Position numbers and translations under genes: made by a program. Source: an uncultured Sphingomonadales bacterium (GTDB taxonomy: Bacteria > Pseudomonadota > Alphaproteobacteria > Sphingomonadales > Sphingomonadaceae). Taken from it: a DNA stretch of 64,000 nt. Positions 56,296-63,754 of the stretch are shown piece by piece; the stretch's first letter is position 1; each line of letters starts with the position of its first letter. The stretch spans positions 1-64,000 of the forward strand of contig CAIJLW010000060.1 in NCBI GenBank assembly GCA_903821685.1. Direction: 5' to 3'. A model generated the notes under the pieces. The model was not told the DNA's origin. It saw nothing but the letters and a program-made list of their open reading frames with translations, and did not search any database.

Positions 56296-58566
56296 ATGCG
56301 CCGTTTGTCATTACTTGCTATTTTATTTTCCTCAACCACAGCCTTACCGGCTTTTGCCCAAGGTGTGCCGACAAATGAGGCTTTGAGAGAAGACGAAATT
56401 ATCGTTACGGCCCAAAAGCGCGAAGAACGTCAGATTGATGTCCCGTTAACGATTACCGCGGTTACGGGAACACGCTTGCGCGAAATTGGCGTTAATGACC
56501 TAGACGAGCTTTCAAACTATGTCCCTGGGCTCAACATTCAGGAGCAGAGCGCGAACAACCCTGGCATCGTAATTCGTGGTATTACATCTGACTCCGGCTC
56601 TGCCCAGCAAGGCGCGCGCGTTACGCTGTATTATAACGGCGTTGATATCTCTCGTTCGCGCGGTTCATATCAGGATATATTCGACATGGAGCGTATCGAG
56701 GTGGTCAAGGGACCACAAGCGACCCTCTTTGGCACCGCCTCTGCCGTCGGCGCGATCAGCTTGATCTCCGCGCGGCCAGAAGATGGCTTCAGCGGCGAAT
56801 TGGGCGGCACATATGGTAACTTCAATCAACATTCAGCCACTGGGTTTATTAACGCAGGCTCGGAAAAGGTCGCTGGACGCGTTGCCTTTGCCTACAAAAA
56901 GCGTGACGGTTATGTAAACAATCTGGCTGCCGGCCAAGACGACTTATACGCCCAAGACCAGTTTGGTACGCGCGGTTCGCTGCGGTTTAAACCCAGTGAC
57001 GCGTTTACCGCCGACTTGATCCTTACCTATGACCGTCAGCGGAATTCAGGCACACCCTTTATCTCCCTTACGTATCCAACCGCGTCGGGCGCGCCCAACG
57101 CCTTTGGCGATGCAGCTCTAGGCGGTACACCCAACGCACTCCGGGATCTCGGGCTGAGCAAACTTGGTCTCAAGCGCGATGTCTATGATGCCAATTTGAC
57201 GGTCAACTGGGATATCGCAGATGATTGGGTACTCACTATGGTCAACGGCTACCGCAAGTTTGACTCGCTCGAAGTATTTGATGCGGATGGGACAGCTGCC
57301 GAATATCTTGAGTTCGCTGAGCTTGCCCAAGGTGACCAGTTTAATCAGGAAACTCGTTTCTCCTACAACAGCGACAAATTCCGCGGGTCGTTCGGATTTA
57401 ACTACTTCCACGAAAACGGGGTGCAAAACGTACCCTTCTCAACGAATGAAAACACGTTTTTTGCTTGCCTCACCGCAACCGCCGCAACGCGGGCGCAGTG
57501 CGTAGCTCCAGATGGTAGCGTTCCTGCCGCCGCCAAACCGCGCATCGACTATCGGTCATTCTTCGAAAATCAAGGCCGTAACACCAGCTATTCCATGTTT
57601 GCCGACGGCACGTGGATCCCGACGCCAAGTCTCGAGATTACAGCAGGTGTTCGCGTGCAGATAGAAAAACGGCTCTCAGGATTCCAGGCTGGCGTGCCGC
57701 GTTCGGGATTGACCGGGGGCGCGTCAGTTGTACCCGGACAAGTCGATACGGCAGGGCAGACATTCAAGTCTGAGGATAGTTATGCCGACGTGCTTCCACG
57801 CTTTAACCTGCTGTATAAGTTCTCGGACAATTTCAATGCCTACGCCACCGTATCAAAAGGACGCCGCTCGGCAATCGTCAATGTCTCTGCGCGCTCTACA
57901 TCCGGTGGCCCCGTTGCCAATATATCGCCAGTTCTTGAGGAAGTTCTCTGGAACTATGAACTCGGGGTAAAGGGCACTATGGGTATCCTTTCAGGATCAA
58001 TCGGTGTTTACTATCTGACATATGATAACTTTCAGGTGAGCATCATCATCCCACCAAGCATTGTCGGCGTAACGCAAAGCGCAGGCACGGCGACAAACAA
58101 AGGCGTTGAGGCAGAAGTTAATGTCCGCCCAACATCATGGCTGACAATGTTCGCCAACGGCGCTTACATTGATGGTGGCATCGACAATCGAGCAGATATT
58201 GCGGCAAACTTCCGTGGCGCCAAATTCCGGTTGCAGCCTGACTATCAGGCATCGGCAGGTTTGATCATTGATGCTCCGCTCGGTAACGTTAATGTGTTCG
58301 CAACGCCTAGCATCACGTATCGCAGCAAGCTGTATTTCGAAACGCCTAACCTTGAAGCGCGGAGCCAAGGACCGGTTACGCTCGTCAATATCGTCGGTGG
58401 CGTTCGGTTCGCCGATAATCGCTACGAAATCTCTGCCTTTGCGCGCAACATTTTCAACAGTCGCTACTTGCTCGACGCCGGAAACACCGGGGGAGCCTTT
58501 GGCATCCCTAGCTTTATCCCCGGTGAACCACGGTTCTATGGATTGAAAATGAGCGCAAAATTCTGA
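56296..58566 (+). CDS. TonB-dependent receptor (sphingomonad type)
   Basis: The 756-residue outer-membrane receptor has a signal peptide (cleavage after ALPAFAQ), a TonB box-like DEIIVTAQKREE and a plug with VPLTITAVTGTRL, NNPGIVIRGIT and ERIEVVKGPQATLFGTASAVGAI. A beta-barrel follows and ends in a terminal phenylalanine (KMSAKF). AGGAG precedes the ATG. It belongs to the large group of sphingomonad receptors whose substrates (glycans, aromatics, siderophores) cannot be read from sequence. It is transcribed towards the minus-strand bet operon and ends before the terminator between them. Confidence 0.92.
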   Translation: MRRLSLLAILFSSTTALPAFAQGVPTNEALREDEIIVTAQKREERQIDVPLTITAVTGTRLREIGVNDLDELSNYVPGLNIQEQSANNPGIVIRGITSDSGSAQQGARVTLYYNGVDISRSRGSYQDIFDMERIEVVKGPQATLFGTASAVGAISLISARPEDGFSGELGGTYGNFNQHSATGFINAGSEKVAGRVAFAYKKRDGYVNNLAAGQDDLYAQDQFGTRGSLRFKPSDAFTADLILTYDRQRNSGTPFISLTYPTASGAPNAFGDAALGGTPNALRDLGLSKLGLKRDVYDANLTVNWDIADDWVLTMVNGYRKFDSLEVFDADGTAAEYLEFAELAQGDQFNQETRFSYNSDKFRGSFGFNYFHENGVQNVPFSTNENTFFACLTATAATRAQCVAPDGSVPAAAKPRIDYRSFFENQGRNTSYSMFADGTWIPTPSLEITAGVRVQIEKRLSGFQAGVPRSGLTGGASVVPGQVDTAGQTFKSEDSYADVLPRFNLLYKFSDNFNAYATVSKGRRSAIVNVSARSTSGGPVANISPVLEEVLWNYELGVKGTMGILSGSIGVYYLTYDNFQVSIIIPPSIVGVTQSAGTATNKGVEAEVNVRPTSWLTMFANGAYIDGGIDNRADIAANFRGAKFRLQPDYQASAGLIIDAPLGNVNVFATPSITYRSKLYFETPNLEARSQGPVTLVNIVGGVRFADNRYEISAFARNIFNSRYLLDAGNTGGAFGIPSFIPGEPRFYGLKMSAKF

Positions 58567-58706: not shown

Positions 58707-60071
58707 CTAACCAATCCTCGCGCCTTGGCGGATCAGTTCCTTTTGCACGGCGCTTATATCAACGTCGCAAAAATCCCGGTCCGACTTGACCGCCAACGCT
58801 GCTGCAACGCCCGCGCCTTGCCCTGCAACCGCGCAGCACATCATGTTTCGTACGGCCGCATGGCTGACCTTGTCGCCACCAATCACGCGGCCGGCGGTAA
58901 TCAAATGCTTCACATTCTTGGGCAACATCGACCGGTAAGGCAGATGGAAATAGCGGCCTGTAGTCGGCAAGATAAGATAGCCATAGCCATCGATGAATTC
59001 CGGAAAGATGCCGATGCTATCGTCAAACCGGCCTTGTTCCATCACGTCGTCTGCCGTCATATTGTACACCGCATCAATCTTGCGCGTATCGCGAATGCCG
59101 AGCGTCATACCGAAGTTACGCAGCTTCGCATCCTCGCAGCCGGGCATGAACGCCTGCAACGCCGCAATGGCATGCATCGCCTGCTTACGCCCTGCCATCT
59201 CGCCATGCGTTAGCGCATCGGGGTTGGTACCGTCGAGATAGAGGTGGCACATGTTGAGATAGGTCAGGTCCCCCTGATCCGAGACTGTACCCCAAGTGCC
59301 TGCCATTGTTTTCACGCTGTCGGGTATCAGCCCTGCTTCCAATGCTTTTTGAAACGGCTTACGCAAAAAGGGCGAAAACATCGCATCCTCTTTGCCGCTG
59401 GTGATCACTTCCCACTCACCACCCACAGCCCAGTCACCATAGGTCTGCGGGTCGGCCTTTACGGCGTCAATAAACCGCGTCTTATTGACGCCGCACATCG
59501 AAAACATGACCGAGACGGACATCATCTCGTCGACTGGATGCATATGCGTCGGGGCCCCAGCGCGGTGGGCGATGTCGGCATCTCCTGTCGCGTCAATGAC
59601 CCGCTTGGCGAGGATAGCTTCACGTCCCGCCTTGCTCTCCACAATCACGCCGTGGATCGTATTGCCCTCCATGATAGGCGCAACACATAATCGGTGGAGC
59701 ATCGGTATAACGCCTGCTTCTTCCACCAGCGTGTCTGCTACAAATTTGAAGGCTTCGGCATCCAGACTGTGGCTTATGGATTGGGGCTCGGGCATGGCTG
59801 CGCCCATCAATTTTGCGCGGTCTTCGAACTCACGTCCGATGCCCTCGCTGTCGATGGTTGCCGGATGCCGATACCAAGCAAAACCCTCGACCCCAACTTG
59901 GGTGATATTGCCGCCGAAGCAGCCATAGCGTTCCAGCAGCGTCGTTTCGACGCCCGCCCGCGCCGATGCCAACGCGGCGGCAAGGCCGCCAGGGCCGGAG
60001 CCAATGACAAGGACATCCGTCTGGCGGATTATATCAATTTTGCGGGCAGGTTCGAGGATAGTATTCATCAT
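58707..60071 (-). CDS. FAD-dependent oxidoreductase, unknown substrate
   Basis: This 454-residue flavoprotein has an N-terminal dinucleotide motif VLVIGSGPGGLAAALASARAGVETTLLERYG and GCFGGNITQVGVEGF, then an ATGDADIAHRAGA motif and a C-terminal GYLILPTTGRYFHLPYRSML segment. The pattern matches the FAD_oxidored family (PF12831-type). The ATG overlaps the betA stop, so it is the third gene of the choline operon and ends before the terminator. It is not a known bet gene, and the reaction is unknown; a role in a related C-N oxidation is only a guess from position. Confidence 0.8.
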   Translation of the reverse strand: MMNTILEPARKIDIIRQTDVLVIGSGPGGLAAALASARAGVETTLLERYGCFGGNITQVGVEGFAWYRHPATIDSEGIGREFEDRAKLMGAAMPEPQSISHSLDAEAFKFVADTLVEEAGVIPMLHRLCVAPIMEGNTIHGVIVESKAGREAILAKRVIDATGDADIAHRAGAPTHMHPVDEMMSVSVMFSMCGVNKTRFIDAVKADPQTYGDWAVGGEWEVITSGKEDAMFSPFLRKPFQKALEAGLIPDSVKTMAGTWGTVSDQGDLTYLNMCHLYLDGTNPDALTHGEMAGRKQAMHAIAALQAFMPGCEDAKLRNFGMTLGIRDTRKIDAVYNMTADDVMEQGRFDDSIGIFPEFIDGYGYLILPTTGRYFHLPYRSMLPKNVKHLITAGRVIGGDKVSHAAVRNMMCCAVAGQGAGVAAALAVKSDRDFCDVDISAVQKELIRQGARIG

Positions 60072-61735
60072 CTCTGGGCAACTTCCCAATCTGGCGCGAC
60101 ATAAAAAGGTGCGTTGGACGGCGCAAGCATTGGCTTTCCAAGGATATGATCTGCGCCCTTTTCACCAATCATGATCGTGGGCGCATTAAGATTGCCTGTG
60201 GTGATGGTCGGCATAACGCTGCTATCGACAACGCGCAGTCCTTGGACACCGATGACGCGCAATTCAGGGTCCACGACCGCCATTGGATCACGCGGGCTGC
60301 CCATCTTGCATGTGCAACTGGGATGCAATGCGCTTTCGACATGTTCGGCGATAAAGGCGTCAATCTGCGCATCGGTAACTATGTCAGCACCGGGTTGAAT
60401 TTCACGTCCACGGAATGGCGTAAAGGCCGGTTGTTGAAAAATCTCACGGGTCAGTCGCACACAGGCCCGCATCTCCGCCCAGTCGTCGGGATGGCTCATA
60501 TAATTGAACAGGATTTTGGGCTTGTCGTGCGGGTCTGCGCTTTTGAGCGTCACTGTGCCACGGCTTTTGGAGCGCATGGGGCCGACATGGGCCTGAAAGC
60601 CATGTTCGGTTGCCAGCGACGATCCGTCATAATTGATTGCCATTGGAAAGAAATGATATTGGACATCAGGATATTTTATACCCGCACGGCTGCGGATAAA
60701 GCCGCAGCTTTCAAACTGGTTTGACGCCCCCAATCCCGACCGCCCGAGCAGCCATTGCGCGCCAACCGTGGCTTTGCCGAGAAGATTTGCCTTGCCATAC
60801 AGAGTGATGGGTTGGGTGCAGGCCATTTGAAAATAGAATTCCAGATGATCCTGTAAGTTTGCGCCGACACCGAGGCGGTCAGCGCGTACTTCTATGCCAT
60901 TCGCTTTTAACTCGTCTGCGGGGCCAATGCCGGAAAGCTTGAGCAGCTGCACGGAATTGATAGGGCCGCCCGCCAAGATGACTTCGCGCGCAGCGCGCAG
61001 TTGATGTATCTGGCCCGCTTGTTCATATTCCACCCCAATGGCGCGCGTGCCTTCAAATAGGATGCGCGTAACCAATGCCTTTTCAATCACTTTGAGATTG
61101 GGCCGTTTCCGGGCTTCGTAAAGATAGGCCTTGGCCGCCGAACAGCGCGTGCCGTCACGCACCGTCATATCCATTCGGCCAAAGCCTTCTTGGGCGTAAC
61201 CATTATAGTCTTCCGTCAGGGCATAGCCTGCCTGTTGCGCGGCATCTAGCCACGCCTGATGCAGCGGGTTGTCGAGCGGGCCATAGCTGGTCGACAGCGG
61301 ACCATCGCCGCCCCGATACTCGTTGCCACCTTCGGCGCGGCCTTCGGCGCGTTTGAAATAGGGTAGCACGTCGGCATAGCCCCAACCGGTGGCGCCCTCA
61401 TCCTCTTTCCAGCGTTCAAAATCGAGCGCGTTGCCGCGCACATAGACAAGTCCGTTAATCGAAGAGGATCCGCCTAGGCCCTTGCCGCGCGGGCAATTCA
61501 GGCGTCGGTTATTCAAATGCGGCTCCGGCTCGCTTTCATAGCCCCAGTTCCAACGCTTGGTATTCATGGGATAGGCAAGCGCTGCTGGCATCTGAATGAA
61601 GATCGAACGGTCACTGCCACCATATTCAAGCAACACCACCTGATGCGTGCCATCGGCGCTCAGCCGGTCCGCCAGCACACAACCGGCAGACCCTGCACCG
61701 ACGATGATATAGTCGGCAGCCTCAATAGGGGGCAT
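60068..61735 (-). CDS. betA: Choline dehydrogenase
   Basis: BetA is a GMC-family FAD enzyme oxidising choline to betaine aldehyde at the membrane. The 555-residue product has YIIVGAGSAGCVLADRLS, PRGKGLGGSSSINGLVYVRGNALD, GPINSVQLLKLSGIG and the catalytic region HVESALHPSCTCKMG. The order and spacing match E. coli BetA throughout. The start at 61735 has GGAG 7 bp upstream and overlaps the 3' end of the BetI-BetB fusion by 14 bp; an upstream ATG at 61756 lies inside that gene. Both enzymes of choline-to-betaine conversion are thus translated from one operon. Confidence 0.93.
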   Translation of the reverse strand: MPPIEAADYIIVGAGSAGCVLADRLSADGTHQVVLLEYGGSDRSIFIQMPAALAYPMNTKRWNWGYESEPEPHLNNRRLNCPRGKGLGGSSSINGLVYVRGNALDFERWKEDEGATGWGYADVLPYFKRAEGRAEGGNEYRGGDGPLSTSYGPLDNPLHQAWLDAAQQAGYALTEDYNGYAQEGFGRMDMTVRDGTRCSAAKAYLYEARKRPNLKVIEKALVTRILFEGTRAIGVEYEQAGQIHQLRAAREVILAGGPINSVQLLKLSGIGPADELKANGIEVRADRLGVGANLQDHLEFYFQMACTQPITLYGKANLLGKATVGAQWLLGRSGLGASNQFESCGFIRSRAGIKYPDVQYHFFPMAINYDGSSLATEHGFQAHVGPMRSKSRGTVTLKSADPHDKPKILFNYMSHPDDWAEMRACVRLTREIFQQPAFTPFRGREIQPGADIVTDAQIDAFIAEHVESALHPSCTCKMGSPRDPMAVVDPELRVIGVQGLRVVDSSVMPTITTGNLNAPTIMIGEKGADHILGKPMLAPSNAPFYVAPDWEVAQR

Positions 61736-63719
61736 CGATTGGCTCCATGGCAACATAGACGCTCTTTAGCTGGGTATAATGTTCAATCGCCGCCTTGCCG
61801 TTTTCGCGGCCAAGACCGGACTGCTTGTTGCCGCCAAATGGCATTTCAATAGGCGTGATATTGTAGGTGTTGATCCAGCAGGTGCCTGCCTCCAACGCCG
61901 CGATGACACGGTGCGCGCGTGGCAAGTTATTCGTAAAAATACCTGCAGCCAGACCAAAATCTGTATTGTTGGCCCGCGCAATAACCTCTGCTTCATCTTC
62001 AAAATCGAGTACTGCCATTACGGGGCCGAAAATCTCTTCGCGGACAATGGCCATCTCGTCAGTACAGCCGGTGAAGATGGTCGGTTCCACAAAGGACCCC
62101 TGCGCAAGATTTCCATTAATTACGCGCTTTCCGCCGGTCATTAGGGTAGCGCCCTGCTGCTGACCAAGCGCGATATATCTCAGTACTTTTTCCATATGCG
62201 CCCGAGAAATCAGTGCGCCCATTTGAGTGGCAGGGTCCAAGGGATCGCCAATCACCATCGCCTCAGTGCGCGCCTTCAGTTTTGCAAGAAACGCATCACG
62301 GACATCTTTATGAACAAAAACCCGCGTGCCGTTGGTGCAAACCTCGCCCGCGGAGTAGAAATTCGCGAGCAGAGCGCCGGAAACGGCCTCGTCCAGATCT
62401 GCGTCCCCGAAGACGATCAGCGCGGATTTTCCGCCAAGTTCAAAGGTTACATATTTTAGCGTGCCCGCCGCATCGACCATAACCTTTTTGCCAGTACCGA
62501 CTTCGCCTGTCAGCGACACTTTGGCAATGCCGGGATGCAGGCTCAGCAAGCGGCCGGTGTCTGCCTTGCCTTGCACCACTTGGAATAGTCCATCCGGCAG
62601 GCCAGCATCGCGATAGGCCTTTTCCAGCTCAATCGCGGTCAGCGGCGTTAGCTCTGCGGGCTTAAAGATCATCGCGTTGCCGCAAGCCAGCGCTGGTGCT
62701 GATTTCCAGCACGCGATTTGGATGGGGTAATTCCAAGCGCCAATGCCAGCAACTACACCCAAGGGTTCGCGCCGGGAATAGCCGAATGCACCCGTGCCAA
62801 GATCATGATGTTCACCTGCTATCGTCCGTGCGAGGCCAGCATAATATTCGATGCAATCCGCGCCGGATAGAACATCCACAGCAATTGTTTCTTGAATGGG
62901 TTTGCCTGTATCTTGCGTTTCAAGTCGAGCGAGCGTTTCGTTGCGCTCAACAAGCAGCGCAGCAGCGCGGTGGAGGATGCGCCCACGTTCTACACCTGGC
63001 GTTTTTGCCCACAGTTTTTGTGCATCGGCGGCGCGACCCACAGCATTGTCGACTTCTGCCTGTCCGTCTATCCGGATCGTCGCAAGCAGTTGCCCTGTCG
63101 CCGGGTTGATCGTGTCAAAATGCGATGCAACCGGCGAAGGTCTGGGGGAACCCAAATTCCGCTCGATGAAATCAAAAATAAGGTCCCGCGCTAAGCCGTT
63201 TTGTAATGCCCCGCCGCCATTCATCGCTGCGCGCAGCCAAACGCCATCGATCATCGCGGCTATGGTGTCCGCCATCGGCAATACATCACGCGCGTCGACC
63301 AACTGGCGCAAATCAAATTTAAGGTTGGACAACATGCGCTTTTGATGTGCGCGCTGCACGCGGGCAAGTTGCGGCACATGCAGGGCCTGTCCCCAAAAGG
63401 ACAACCAAATTCGGGCACTATCCTCGGCATATTCATTATGCCCCAGATGTGAATCCACCAGTGCCTCTATGCGCGCACGCGACCCCGCAGCAAGCCCGAG
63501 GCGCACCGTTGCCTGATTGTTCAGCTGACGCACCACGGATCGGAAGGCAGCTTCGAGAAGGGCTTCTTTACTGCCAAAATAATGCACAATCAGCGCGGCC
63601 GAGACACCTGCTTGGCGCGAGACTTTATTGAACGTGAATTCAACTATTCCATATTCAGCTATAACACCGATTGCCGAAGCAATAATATGTTGGTGACGCG
63701 CGTTAGAATGTCGAGGCAT
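61722..63719 (-). CDS. BetI-BetB fusion: TetR repressor joined to betaine aldehyde dehydrogenase
   Basis: One 665-residue frame holds two proteins that are separate in E. coli. Residues 1 to about 193 match BetI: a TetR helix-turn-helix (FTFNKVSRQAGVSAALIVHY, residues 28-47) and the BetI ligand domain (ARIWLSFWGQALHVPQL, AAMIDGVWLRAAMNG). A short linker (SPRPSPVASH) leads into BetB, from TINPATGQLLA at 203 to the end. BetB has Asn330 (GAWNYPIQ), Glu427 (FELGGKS) and nucleophile Cys461 (EVCTNGTR). BetI normally represses bet genes until choline binds; BetB oxidises betaine aldehyde to glycine betaine. No in-frame ATG lies near the junction. The Shine-Dalgarno is weak and a palindrome lies 20 bp upstream. 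Confidence 0.93.
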   Translation of the reverse strand: MPRHSNARHQHIIASAIGVIAEYGIVEFTFNKVSRQAGVSAALIVHYFGSKEALLEAAFRSVVRQLNNQATVRLGLAAGSRARIEALVDSHLGHNEYAEDSARIWLSFWGQALHVPQLARVQRAHQKRMLSNLKFDLRQLVDARDVLPMADTIAAMIDGVWLRAAMNGGGALQNGLARDLIFDFIERNLGSPRPSPVASHFDTINPATGQLLATIRIDGQAEVDNAVGRAADAQKLWAKTPGVERGRILHRAAALLVERNETLARLETQDTGKPIQETIAVDVLSGADCIEYYAGLARTIAGEHHDLGTGAFGYSRREPLGVVAGIGAWNYPIQIACWKSAPALACGNAMIFKPAELTPLTAIELEKAYRDAGLPDGLFQVVQGKADTGRLLSLHPGIAKVSLTGEVGTGKKVMVDAAGTLKYVTFELGGKSALIVFGDADLDEAVSGALLANFYSAGEVCTNGTRVFVHKDVRDAFLAKLKARTEAMVIGDPLDPATQMGALISRAHMEKVLRYIALGQQQGATLMTGGKRVINGNLAQGSFVEPTIFTGCTDEMAIVREEIFGPVMAVLDFEDEAEVIARANNTDFGLAAGIFTNNLPRAHRVIAALEAGTCWINTYNITPIEMPFGGNKQSGLGRENGKAAIEHYTQLKSVYVAMEPIDAPY

Positions 63720-63738: not shown

Positions 63739-63754
63739 TTGAACGTCTATTCAA
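63739..63754. promoter_or_regulatory. Candidate BetI operator
   Basis: TTGAA-N6-TTCAA (ATTGAACGTCTATTCAAC) is an inverted repeat 20 bp upstream of the fusion start. It closely resembles E. coli BetI sites, which as I remember contain ATTGAACGT. The location overlaps the likely promoter, so it suits autorepression by the fused BetI domain. Confidence 0.55.

Follow-up and report, generated by a model that had tools for sequence, protein, structure and literature searches.

In Escherichia coli, the genes encoding the repressor BetI and betaine aldehyde dehydrogenase (BetB) are separate and lie 13 nt apart. Separate betI and betB genes, which an initial annotation of the DNA described here had taken as the rule for known bet operons, are also found at the unfused loci sampled in this analysis. 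However, in an uncultured Sphingomonadales bacterium (GenBank assembly GCA_903821685.1), BetI forms the N-terminal half of BetB within a single gene. This gene lies near one end of the window, the stretch of 64,000 nucleotides that was analyzed (contig CAIJLW010000060.1, positions 1 to 64,000), and was called as an open reading frame (ORF) without an internal stop. The gene and its parts are as follows:

61722-63719, minus strand: BetI-BetB fusion gene of 665 codons, with the ATG start at 63719 and the stop at 61722-61724
63546-63686, minus strand: TetR_N helix-turn-helix (HTH) domain, residues 12-58 (Pfam)
63153-63479, minus strand: BetI-type C-terminal domain TetR_C_6, residues 81-189 (Pfam)
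63126-63152, minus strand: junction or linker, residues 190-198, occupying the place of the first ~20 BetB residues (alignment)
61758-63125, minus strand: betaine aldehyde dehydrogenase domain, residues 199-654 by Pfam (Aldedh) and 198-665 by NF009725

All three Pfam matches (TetR_N, TetR_C_6, and Aldedh) exceed the Pfam cut-offs, with TetR_N (PF00440) scoring 41.4 bits (cut-off 24) and PF13977 scoring 77.5 bits (cut-off 27). The BetI half also scores 163.7 bits against NF001978, above the cut-off of 118. The enzyme half is a putative betaine aldehyde dehydrogenase, matching the betaine-aldehyde dehydrogenase model NF009725 at 763.5 bits (cut-off 593) from model position 21 and TIGR01804 at 656 bits, slightly below the cut-off of 668.6, from model position 14. 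The Asn, Glu, and Cys residues that had been described as intact are Asn330, Glu427, and Cys461 (window positions 62730-62732, 62439-62441, and 62337-62339), which we take to be the catalytic trio of aldehyde dehydrogenase (ALDH) enzymes, and they are invariant in all 49 fused proteins aligned. The gene had also been described as a complete BetI joined to a complete BetB. The single frame and the presence of both domains bear this out, but BetB is short of its first ~20 residues, which in the alignment are gone from the window group, with the junction in their place. Ancylobacter-type fusions retain the IGG.x.V strand of the BetB N-terminus, and linker length differs among the fusions in the alignment.

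An AlphaFold model of the fusion monomer, with a mean predicted local distance difference test (pLDDT) score of 80 and a predicted template modeling (pTM) score of 0.65, contains two folded domains joined by a weak linker. The pLDDT falls below 50 at residues 191-195, and confidence is also low at residues 612-659. Because of the pTM score and this second low-confidence stretch, the placement of the two domains in the model is not interpreted. The best structural matches of the model are the BetB structures PDB 6wsa, 3r31, and 2wme, at 55-59% identity.

Distribution and origin of the fusion

A contig scan covering one genome per species (84,980 species) was used to retain the best 80 loci, a set that favors fusions because it is ranked by similarity to a fused query. 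Both domains occupy one full frame at 79 of these best 80 public loci, where fusion status, as in the genome samples below, was counted from ORF calls made in this analysis. The exception, L064, is likewise fused, but a premature stop truncates the late part of its BetB. This gene belongs to a member of the genus (G023:C51), has its premature TGA near residue 564, and may be a decaying or mis-assembled copy. Printed open-frame lengths hinted at many more frames of ~700 amino acids, but the ORF calls made none of these a further fusion and showed, at 12 loci, one in-frame stop between betI and betB. On a complete Komagataeibacter plasmid (NZ_CP023037.1, 96699-98729), the fusion is one 676-amino-acid coding sequence (CDS; WP_254058047.1) named betB only. 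The regulator is thus hidden in the annotation of this public record.

Genomes were also sampled from the genus, family, class, and phylum, independently of the fusion. Among the 45 genomes of the genus sample, 10 contain the full fusion, G023 contains the fusion with the premature TGA, and G014 and G031 contain it in contig-end fragments. The best matches in the remaining 32 genomes are ALDHs at no more than 43% identity, and no genome of the genus sample has an unfused close BetB, in both cases among the matches listed. In the family sample, BetB occurs at E<=1e-130 in 20 of 397 genomes, 17 fused and 3 unfused. The class sample contains BetB at E<=1e-125 in 49 of 385 genomes (3 fused, among the places listed), and the phylum sample contains it in 112 of 398 genomes (5 fused, again among the places listed). 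By these counts, BetB usually comes as the fusion in the family, whereas elsewhere this form is in the minority. The family, class, and phylum samples, together with the public loci, rule out the fusion being a local oddity of one genus. Among the matches listed, record titles with the fusion include Sphingomonadales, Caulobacterales, Ancylobacter, Azorhizobium, Bosea, Rhodomicrobium, and genera of the Acetobacteraceae, and many metagenome-assembled genomes (MAGs) labelled Gammaproteobacteria also carry it, going by record titles only.

In a BetI tree of 162 rows, which like the BetB tree is a quick search with many weak forks, all 88 fused rows fall to the same side of a single branch, with a Shimodaira-Hasegawa-like approximate likelihood ratio test (SH-aLRT) value of 97. 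Several independent fusions are therefore not supported. In the BetB tree of 138 rows, a set of 93 (SH-aLRT 90) unites the 88 fused rows with 5 that have no BetI, and the next row out is L135 (SH-aLRT 95), a betI-TGA-betB locus at which the two genes are separate but in the same frame. In total, betI and betB share a frame with one stop between them at 12 unfused loci (L135, L140, L151, L157, L162, L174, L176, L211, L214, L229, L249, and L258), and loss of one stop codon is thus a simple route to the fusion. These 12 loci may be regarded as natural pre-fusion layouts, at which rare readthrough would yield the fusion.

The BetB tree requires six changes of fusion state because the five rows without BetI (L048, L050, L051, L143, and L136) sit inside the fused set. 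As judged by eye, L048, L050, L051, and L143 are without the usual BetB N-terminal strand, as are the Sphingomonad fusions, and this fits later loss of the BetI half; L136 retains the strand. Given the trees and the sister loci that still carry the stop, the fusion probably has one origin by stop-codon loss in a betI-stop-betB locus, followed by a few losses of BetI. The stop codon between betI and betB in the same frame would have been lost once, and the fusion would then have been inherited and spread. Confinement to one clade, which the initial annotation had raised as a question, applies to the gene trees; it does not extend to the record titles, among which are several alphaproteobacterial orders as well as MAGs labelled Gammaproteobacteria.

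BetI boxes and gene neighborhood

Two palindromes in the window are predicted to be BetI boxes, and both lie at the fusion gene:

63739-63754, unstranded: predicted BetI box 1, TTGAATAGACGTTCAA on the minus strand, -35 to -20 relative to the ATG
63628-63643, unstranded: predicted BetI box 2, TTGAATTCACGTTCAA on the minus strand, inside codons 26-31, with its center 111 bp from box 1

The palindrome at 63739-63754 had been named by the initial annotation as a site for gel shifts and is real, and the one at 63628-63643 had been overlooked. In the window genome, a draft assembly of 148 contigs and 2.12 Mb, the stricter palindrome TTGAAYNNNNRTTCAA occurs only at these two places, and within the 64 kb window a looser palindrome is likewise confined to these two sites. 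Across fused loci, TTGA-N8-TCAA is present in the 250 nt preceding the BetI domain at 63 of 89 (a count that includes one locus twice, as L107 = L132), compared with 0.45 expected from dinucleotide shuffles, and the other spacings of 2 to 15 between the half-sites are found at 0-6 fused loci each. The betT-betI intergenic region of E. coli holds TTGATTGGACGTTCAA, the sole TTGA-N8-TCAA site in 8 kb. In PMC12442346, the betI box is given as ATTGACG*CGTCAAT, which has a like half-site and a shorter spacing than TTGA-N8-TCAA. It is likely from these patterns that the fusion gene carries a BetI box in its own promoter.

The presence of two boxes largely follows the fusion. In a position weight matrix (PWM) scan from -400 to +560, at least two boxes are found at 73 of 88 fused betI loci vs. 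2 of 74 unfused betI loci. When boxes had to be at least 16 bp apart and at least 350 nt of upstream sequence was required, two boxes were found at 75 of 85 fused vs. 2 of 72 unfused loci, a set from which L115, L117, L195, and L274 were dropped for short upstream sequence and which does not include the window itself. The two unfused loci with double boxes are L138, where the boxes are 20 bp apart, and L205, where they are about 200 bp apart and the second is weak.

The core of box 2 is retained in 15 of 16 window-clade genes, compared with about 0.10 expected per gene by codon resampling with the genes' own usage; the rows of the clade are related, so that 15/16 against ~10% is not a p-value. 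Within this clade, the box 2 codons are nearly uniform, with GTT for Val26 (15/15), GAA for Glu27 (13/13), ACG for Thr29 (14/14), and TTC for Phe30 (13/14), and variation is seen at the third position of the Phe28 codon, where the box center is under weak constraint. In L063, the residues are VDFKLN, three of which differ, yet the core of box 2 is retained.

Downstream of the fusion gene in the window lies one further gene of the pathway:

60068-61756, minus strand: betA, choline dehydrogenase (TIGR01810, 827 bits; cut-off 732)

The longest betA frame shares 35 nt with the end of the fusion gene. Downstream of betA is a flavin adenine dinucleotide (FAD)-dependent oxidoreductase (window 58707-60089, minus strand), and convergent to it is a frame that resembles a TonB-dependent receptor by eye (window 56296-58566, plus strand). 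Upstream of the fusion, a co-directional sulfatase (contig 63886-65562, equal to L281:7887-9563, minus strand) scores below the cut-off of the choline-sulfatase model TIGR03417, and beyond it is a gene judged by eye to be formylglycine-generating enzyme-like (L281:12074-12988, plus strand). At 43 fused loci, a choline-transporter-like frame is divergent upstream. Beside some fusions, the divergent choline ATP-binding cassette (ABC) transporter gene likewise joins two proteins, a substrate-binding protein and a permease by Pfam, as seen at L118:2814-4841 and L079:2930-4780 (both minus strand), and the L118 gene is also matched by TIGR03414 plus TIGR03416. At L071, the large frame closest to the fusion on its upstream side encodes an MttB-type trimethylamine methyltransferase (L071:2867-4459, minus strand), which suggests wider quaternary-amine use.

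Proposed mechanism and its alternatives

We favor, with somewhat more confidence than an even chance would warrant, a reading in which the fusion is a bifunctional, choline-responsive BetI autorepressor built into BetB, has one origin, and forms an enzyme tetramer whose two BetI dimers may hold two operators. Without choline, the TetR half would bind the TTGA-N8-TCAA boxes at its own promoter and repress the fusion gene and betA, and choline would release it from the boxes. We infer this choline-relieved autorepression from the conserved boxes, the conserved BetI residues, and known BetI biology. Betaine aldehyde dehydrogenases are tetramers, and the enzyme half would therefore gather four BetI domains, or two DNA-binding dimers, in one particle. 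Such a particle could hold two operators, in the window the one at -35 to -20 and the one inside codons 26-31, and we hypothesize that two BetI dimers sit on the tetramer and that it bridges both boxes. Since repressor and enzyme share one chain, each induced enzyme molecule would double as a repressor molecule, giving a built-in 1:1 feedback. A bolder extension, to which we give tentative credence well below even, is that in an old fusion the tetramer of the repressor's own metabolic enzyme is the scaffold that makes a dimeric TetR protein bivalent, that promoters co-evolved a second operator, placed in the window clade among the codons of the repressor itself, and that the particle bridges or loops the DNA under its control.

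Several observations weigh against this interpretation. Only one box is found at 10 of the 85 fused loci (five Caulobacterales, L076, L090, L101, L047, and L063), and with a stricter first PWM, 15 of 88 fused loci fall short of two boxes, including three of Acidocella type and two others with <70 nt upstream. A PWM made from unfused boxes leaves two hits at 45 of 85 fused loci (vs. 1 of 72 unfused), and the second box of unfused L205, weak as it is, is well separated from the first. The spacings between boxes range from 41 to 231 bp, and helical phasing of the paired boxes was rejected at a period of 10.5 bp (R 0.11, p about 0.37). A period of 10.0 bp gives R 0.35 (p about 0.0001), but it is one of seven that were tried, and the rows are related. 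L055 is without the box 2 core, and the box 2 stretch ranks third of 551 six-codon windows in synonymous conservation, two others being slightly higher. Because the fusion has one origin, its link with paired boxes is also phylogenetically near a single event. Finally, the far box could belong to the promoter of the divergent choline transporter in many fused lineages. Two operator-binding dimers on one enzyme, as envisaged by the initial annotation, thus gain indirect support from the paired boxes that accompany the fusion, and lose some from the missing 10.5 bp phasing and the fused lineages with one box.

The strongest alternative, which we regard as a real contender although we would not bet on it, is that the two halves are plainly tethered and act as separate BetI and BetB, with neither bridging nor cross-talk, and that box 2 is an operator of the neighboring promoter or a chance run of codons. 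The 43 fused loci with a divergent choline-transporter-like frame are consistent with such a tether, as are the single box of Caulobacterales fusions without a divergent transporter and the absence of box phasing at 10.5 bp, and the variable linker length suggests loosely joined domains. However, where the divergent choline ABC transporter is present, two boxes are found at 36 of 43 fused vs. 1 of 20 unfused loci, the other 19 unfused loci having one box. The neighboring promoter also fits poorly in the window, where the gene upstream runs in the same direction and box 2 is within coding sequence, its core retained in 15 of the 16 clade genes. Two boxes are likewise found at all 11 fused loci scored with a co-directional upstream frame, although this score is weak and may pick antisense shadow frames.

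The initial annotation had been reminded of PutA, in which substrate and redox state decide between DNA and membrane. It is unlikely that the fusion works as a PutA-like switch, in which DNA binding by the repressor half would respond to betaine aldehyde or NAD(H) bound by the enzyme half. The architecture, with an enzyme and the repressor of one pathway in one chain, is what such a switch has in its favor. Profile scans found no PutA-type flavoprotein domain in the chain, and a linker of low pLDDT and variable length does not suggest a rigid allosteric path.

Similarly improbable is a gene with two products, in which an internal start or proteolysis additionally gives free BetB. An in-frame ATG near the junction is kept in 29 of 81 fused genes, about half of which are Ancylobacter-type or Caulobacterales, but the junction ATG is missing in 52 of the 81 and any start codon is missing in 18. 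Shine-Dalgarno energies of -6 or stronger are rarer at junction starts (5.4%) than at internal codons (11.6%), and with no enrichment at the junction of the 81 fused genes, an internal start as a common design was rejected. The window junction is without an ATG, as had been claimed, and offers one TTG, which lies 12 codons ahead of the BetB core and scores weakly for a Shine-Dalgarno sequence. The earlier argument for one polypeptide is strengthened by the conserved single frame, the lack of an enriched internal start, the conserved operators, and two features of the BetI half considered next, namely its purifying selection and the lack of another close BetI.

We consider it highly unlikely that the BetI half is a relic carried passively. 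Its score against TIGR03384, one of the two BetI models, is 174.1 bits and below the cut-off of 201.3, which counts against the favored autorepressor as well, and five BetB genes inside the fused clade are without an adjacent BetI. Median pairwise ratios of nonsynonymous to synonymous substitution (dN/dS) in five groups are 0.078, 0.209, 0.122, 0.136, and 0.072 for the BetI domain and 0.030, 0.164, 0.113, 0.123, and 0.075 for BetB. BetI is close to BetB in four of the groups, and in the window group it is higher (0.078 vs. 0.030). The ratios are rough, again a point against our interpretation, because dS is near saturation in several groups (median dS ~0.5 to 1.2). Nevertheless, dN/dS is far under 1 in all five groups, and by this measure the BetI domain is under purifying selection. 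Moreover, the HTH residues His46-Tyr47-Phe48 and the C-terminal residues Trp105, Trp109, Asp158, and Trp161 do not vary among the 49 aligned fused proteins, and the operators are conserved; the four C-terminal residues may, at a guess, bind choline. No other close BetI that could replace the fused one was found at E<=1e-10 in any of the 24 fusion genomes searched, in which two weak BetI paralogues of 26-29% identity occur (G295 and G886). In three genomes with a BetI-less relative, one of them 80% complete, no BetI was found.

An assembly or sequencing artefact that conceals a stop or frameshift at the junction, for which the 148-contig draft state of the window genome might speak, is refuted by the one-frame junction at 79 of the best 80 public loci and in the 676-amino-acid CDS of the complete plasmid, and can be set aside almost entirely. 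These loci likewise exclude chance as the source of the junction.

Comparison with known systems

BetI and BetB are known, and regulator-enzyme fusions are known in principle from PutA; the paired boxes that go with the BetI-BetB fusion are new here. The fusion is named in no open-licence paper among the matches listed, and absence there is not absence from print. If the proposed mechanism is true, a whole lineage of bet operons is without a free repressor and has regulator and enzyme fixed at 1:1, and operator number goes with an oligomeric state lent by the enzyme. This would make testable the general question of how the DNA logic of a repressor shifts when fusion adds valency, for which the betI-stop-betB sister loci, the fused one-box lineages, and the BetB genes that lost BetI are natural controls.

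The fusion has in common with the BetI repressors of E. coli and Ruegeria pomeroyi (BetI1, PMC12442346) the BetI-type C-terminal domain, the HTH, the promoter TTGA/TCAA palindromes, and the linkage to betB and betA. However, known BetIs are separate proteins, whereas here BetI makes up the N-terminal half of the BetB chain and usually has paired operators. Likewise, the enzyme half shares with the BetB structures (PDB 6wsa, 3r31, and 2wme) the 55-59% identity given above and the catalytic residues, but its N-terminal ~20 residues are exchanged for a repressor domain and a short linker.

In PutA, one chain combines a ribbon-helix-helix domain with a proline dehydrogenase flavodomain and a pyrroline-5-carboxylate dehydrogenase, and substrate and redox state switch the protein between membrane and DNA. 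An aldehyde dehydrogenase and the repressor of its own operon are thus joined in one chain in both cases, whereas the fusion chain contains only TetR and Aldedh domains by Pfam and not the domain set of PutA. The LacI tetramer has an auxiliary operator inside lacZ. By analogy, the fusion may be likened to LacI as a multivalent repressor whose two operators lie at the promoter and within a coding sequence, with the differences that its oligomerizing part would be a metabolic enzyme and that looping is hypothetical.

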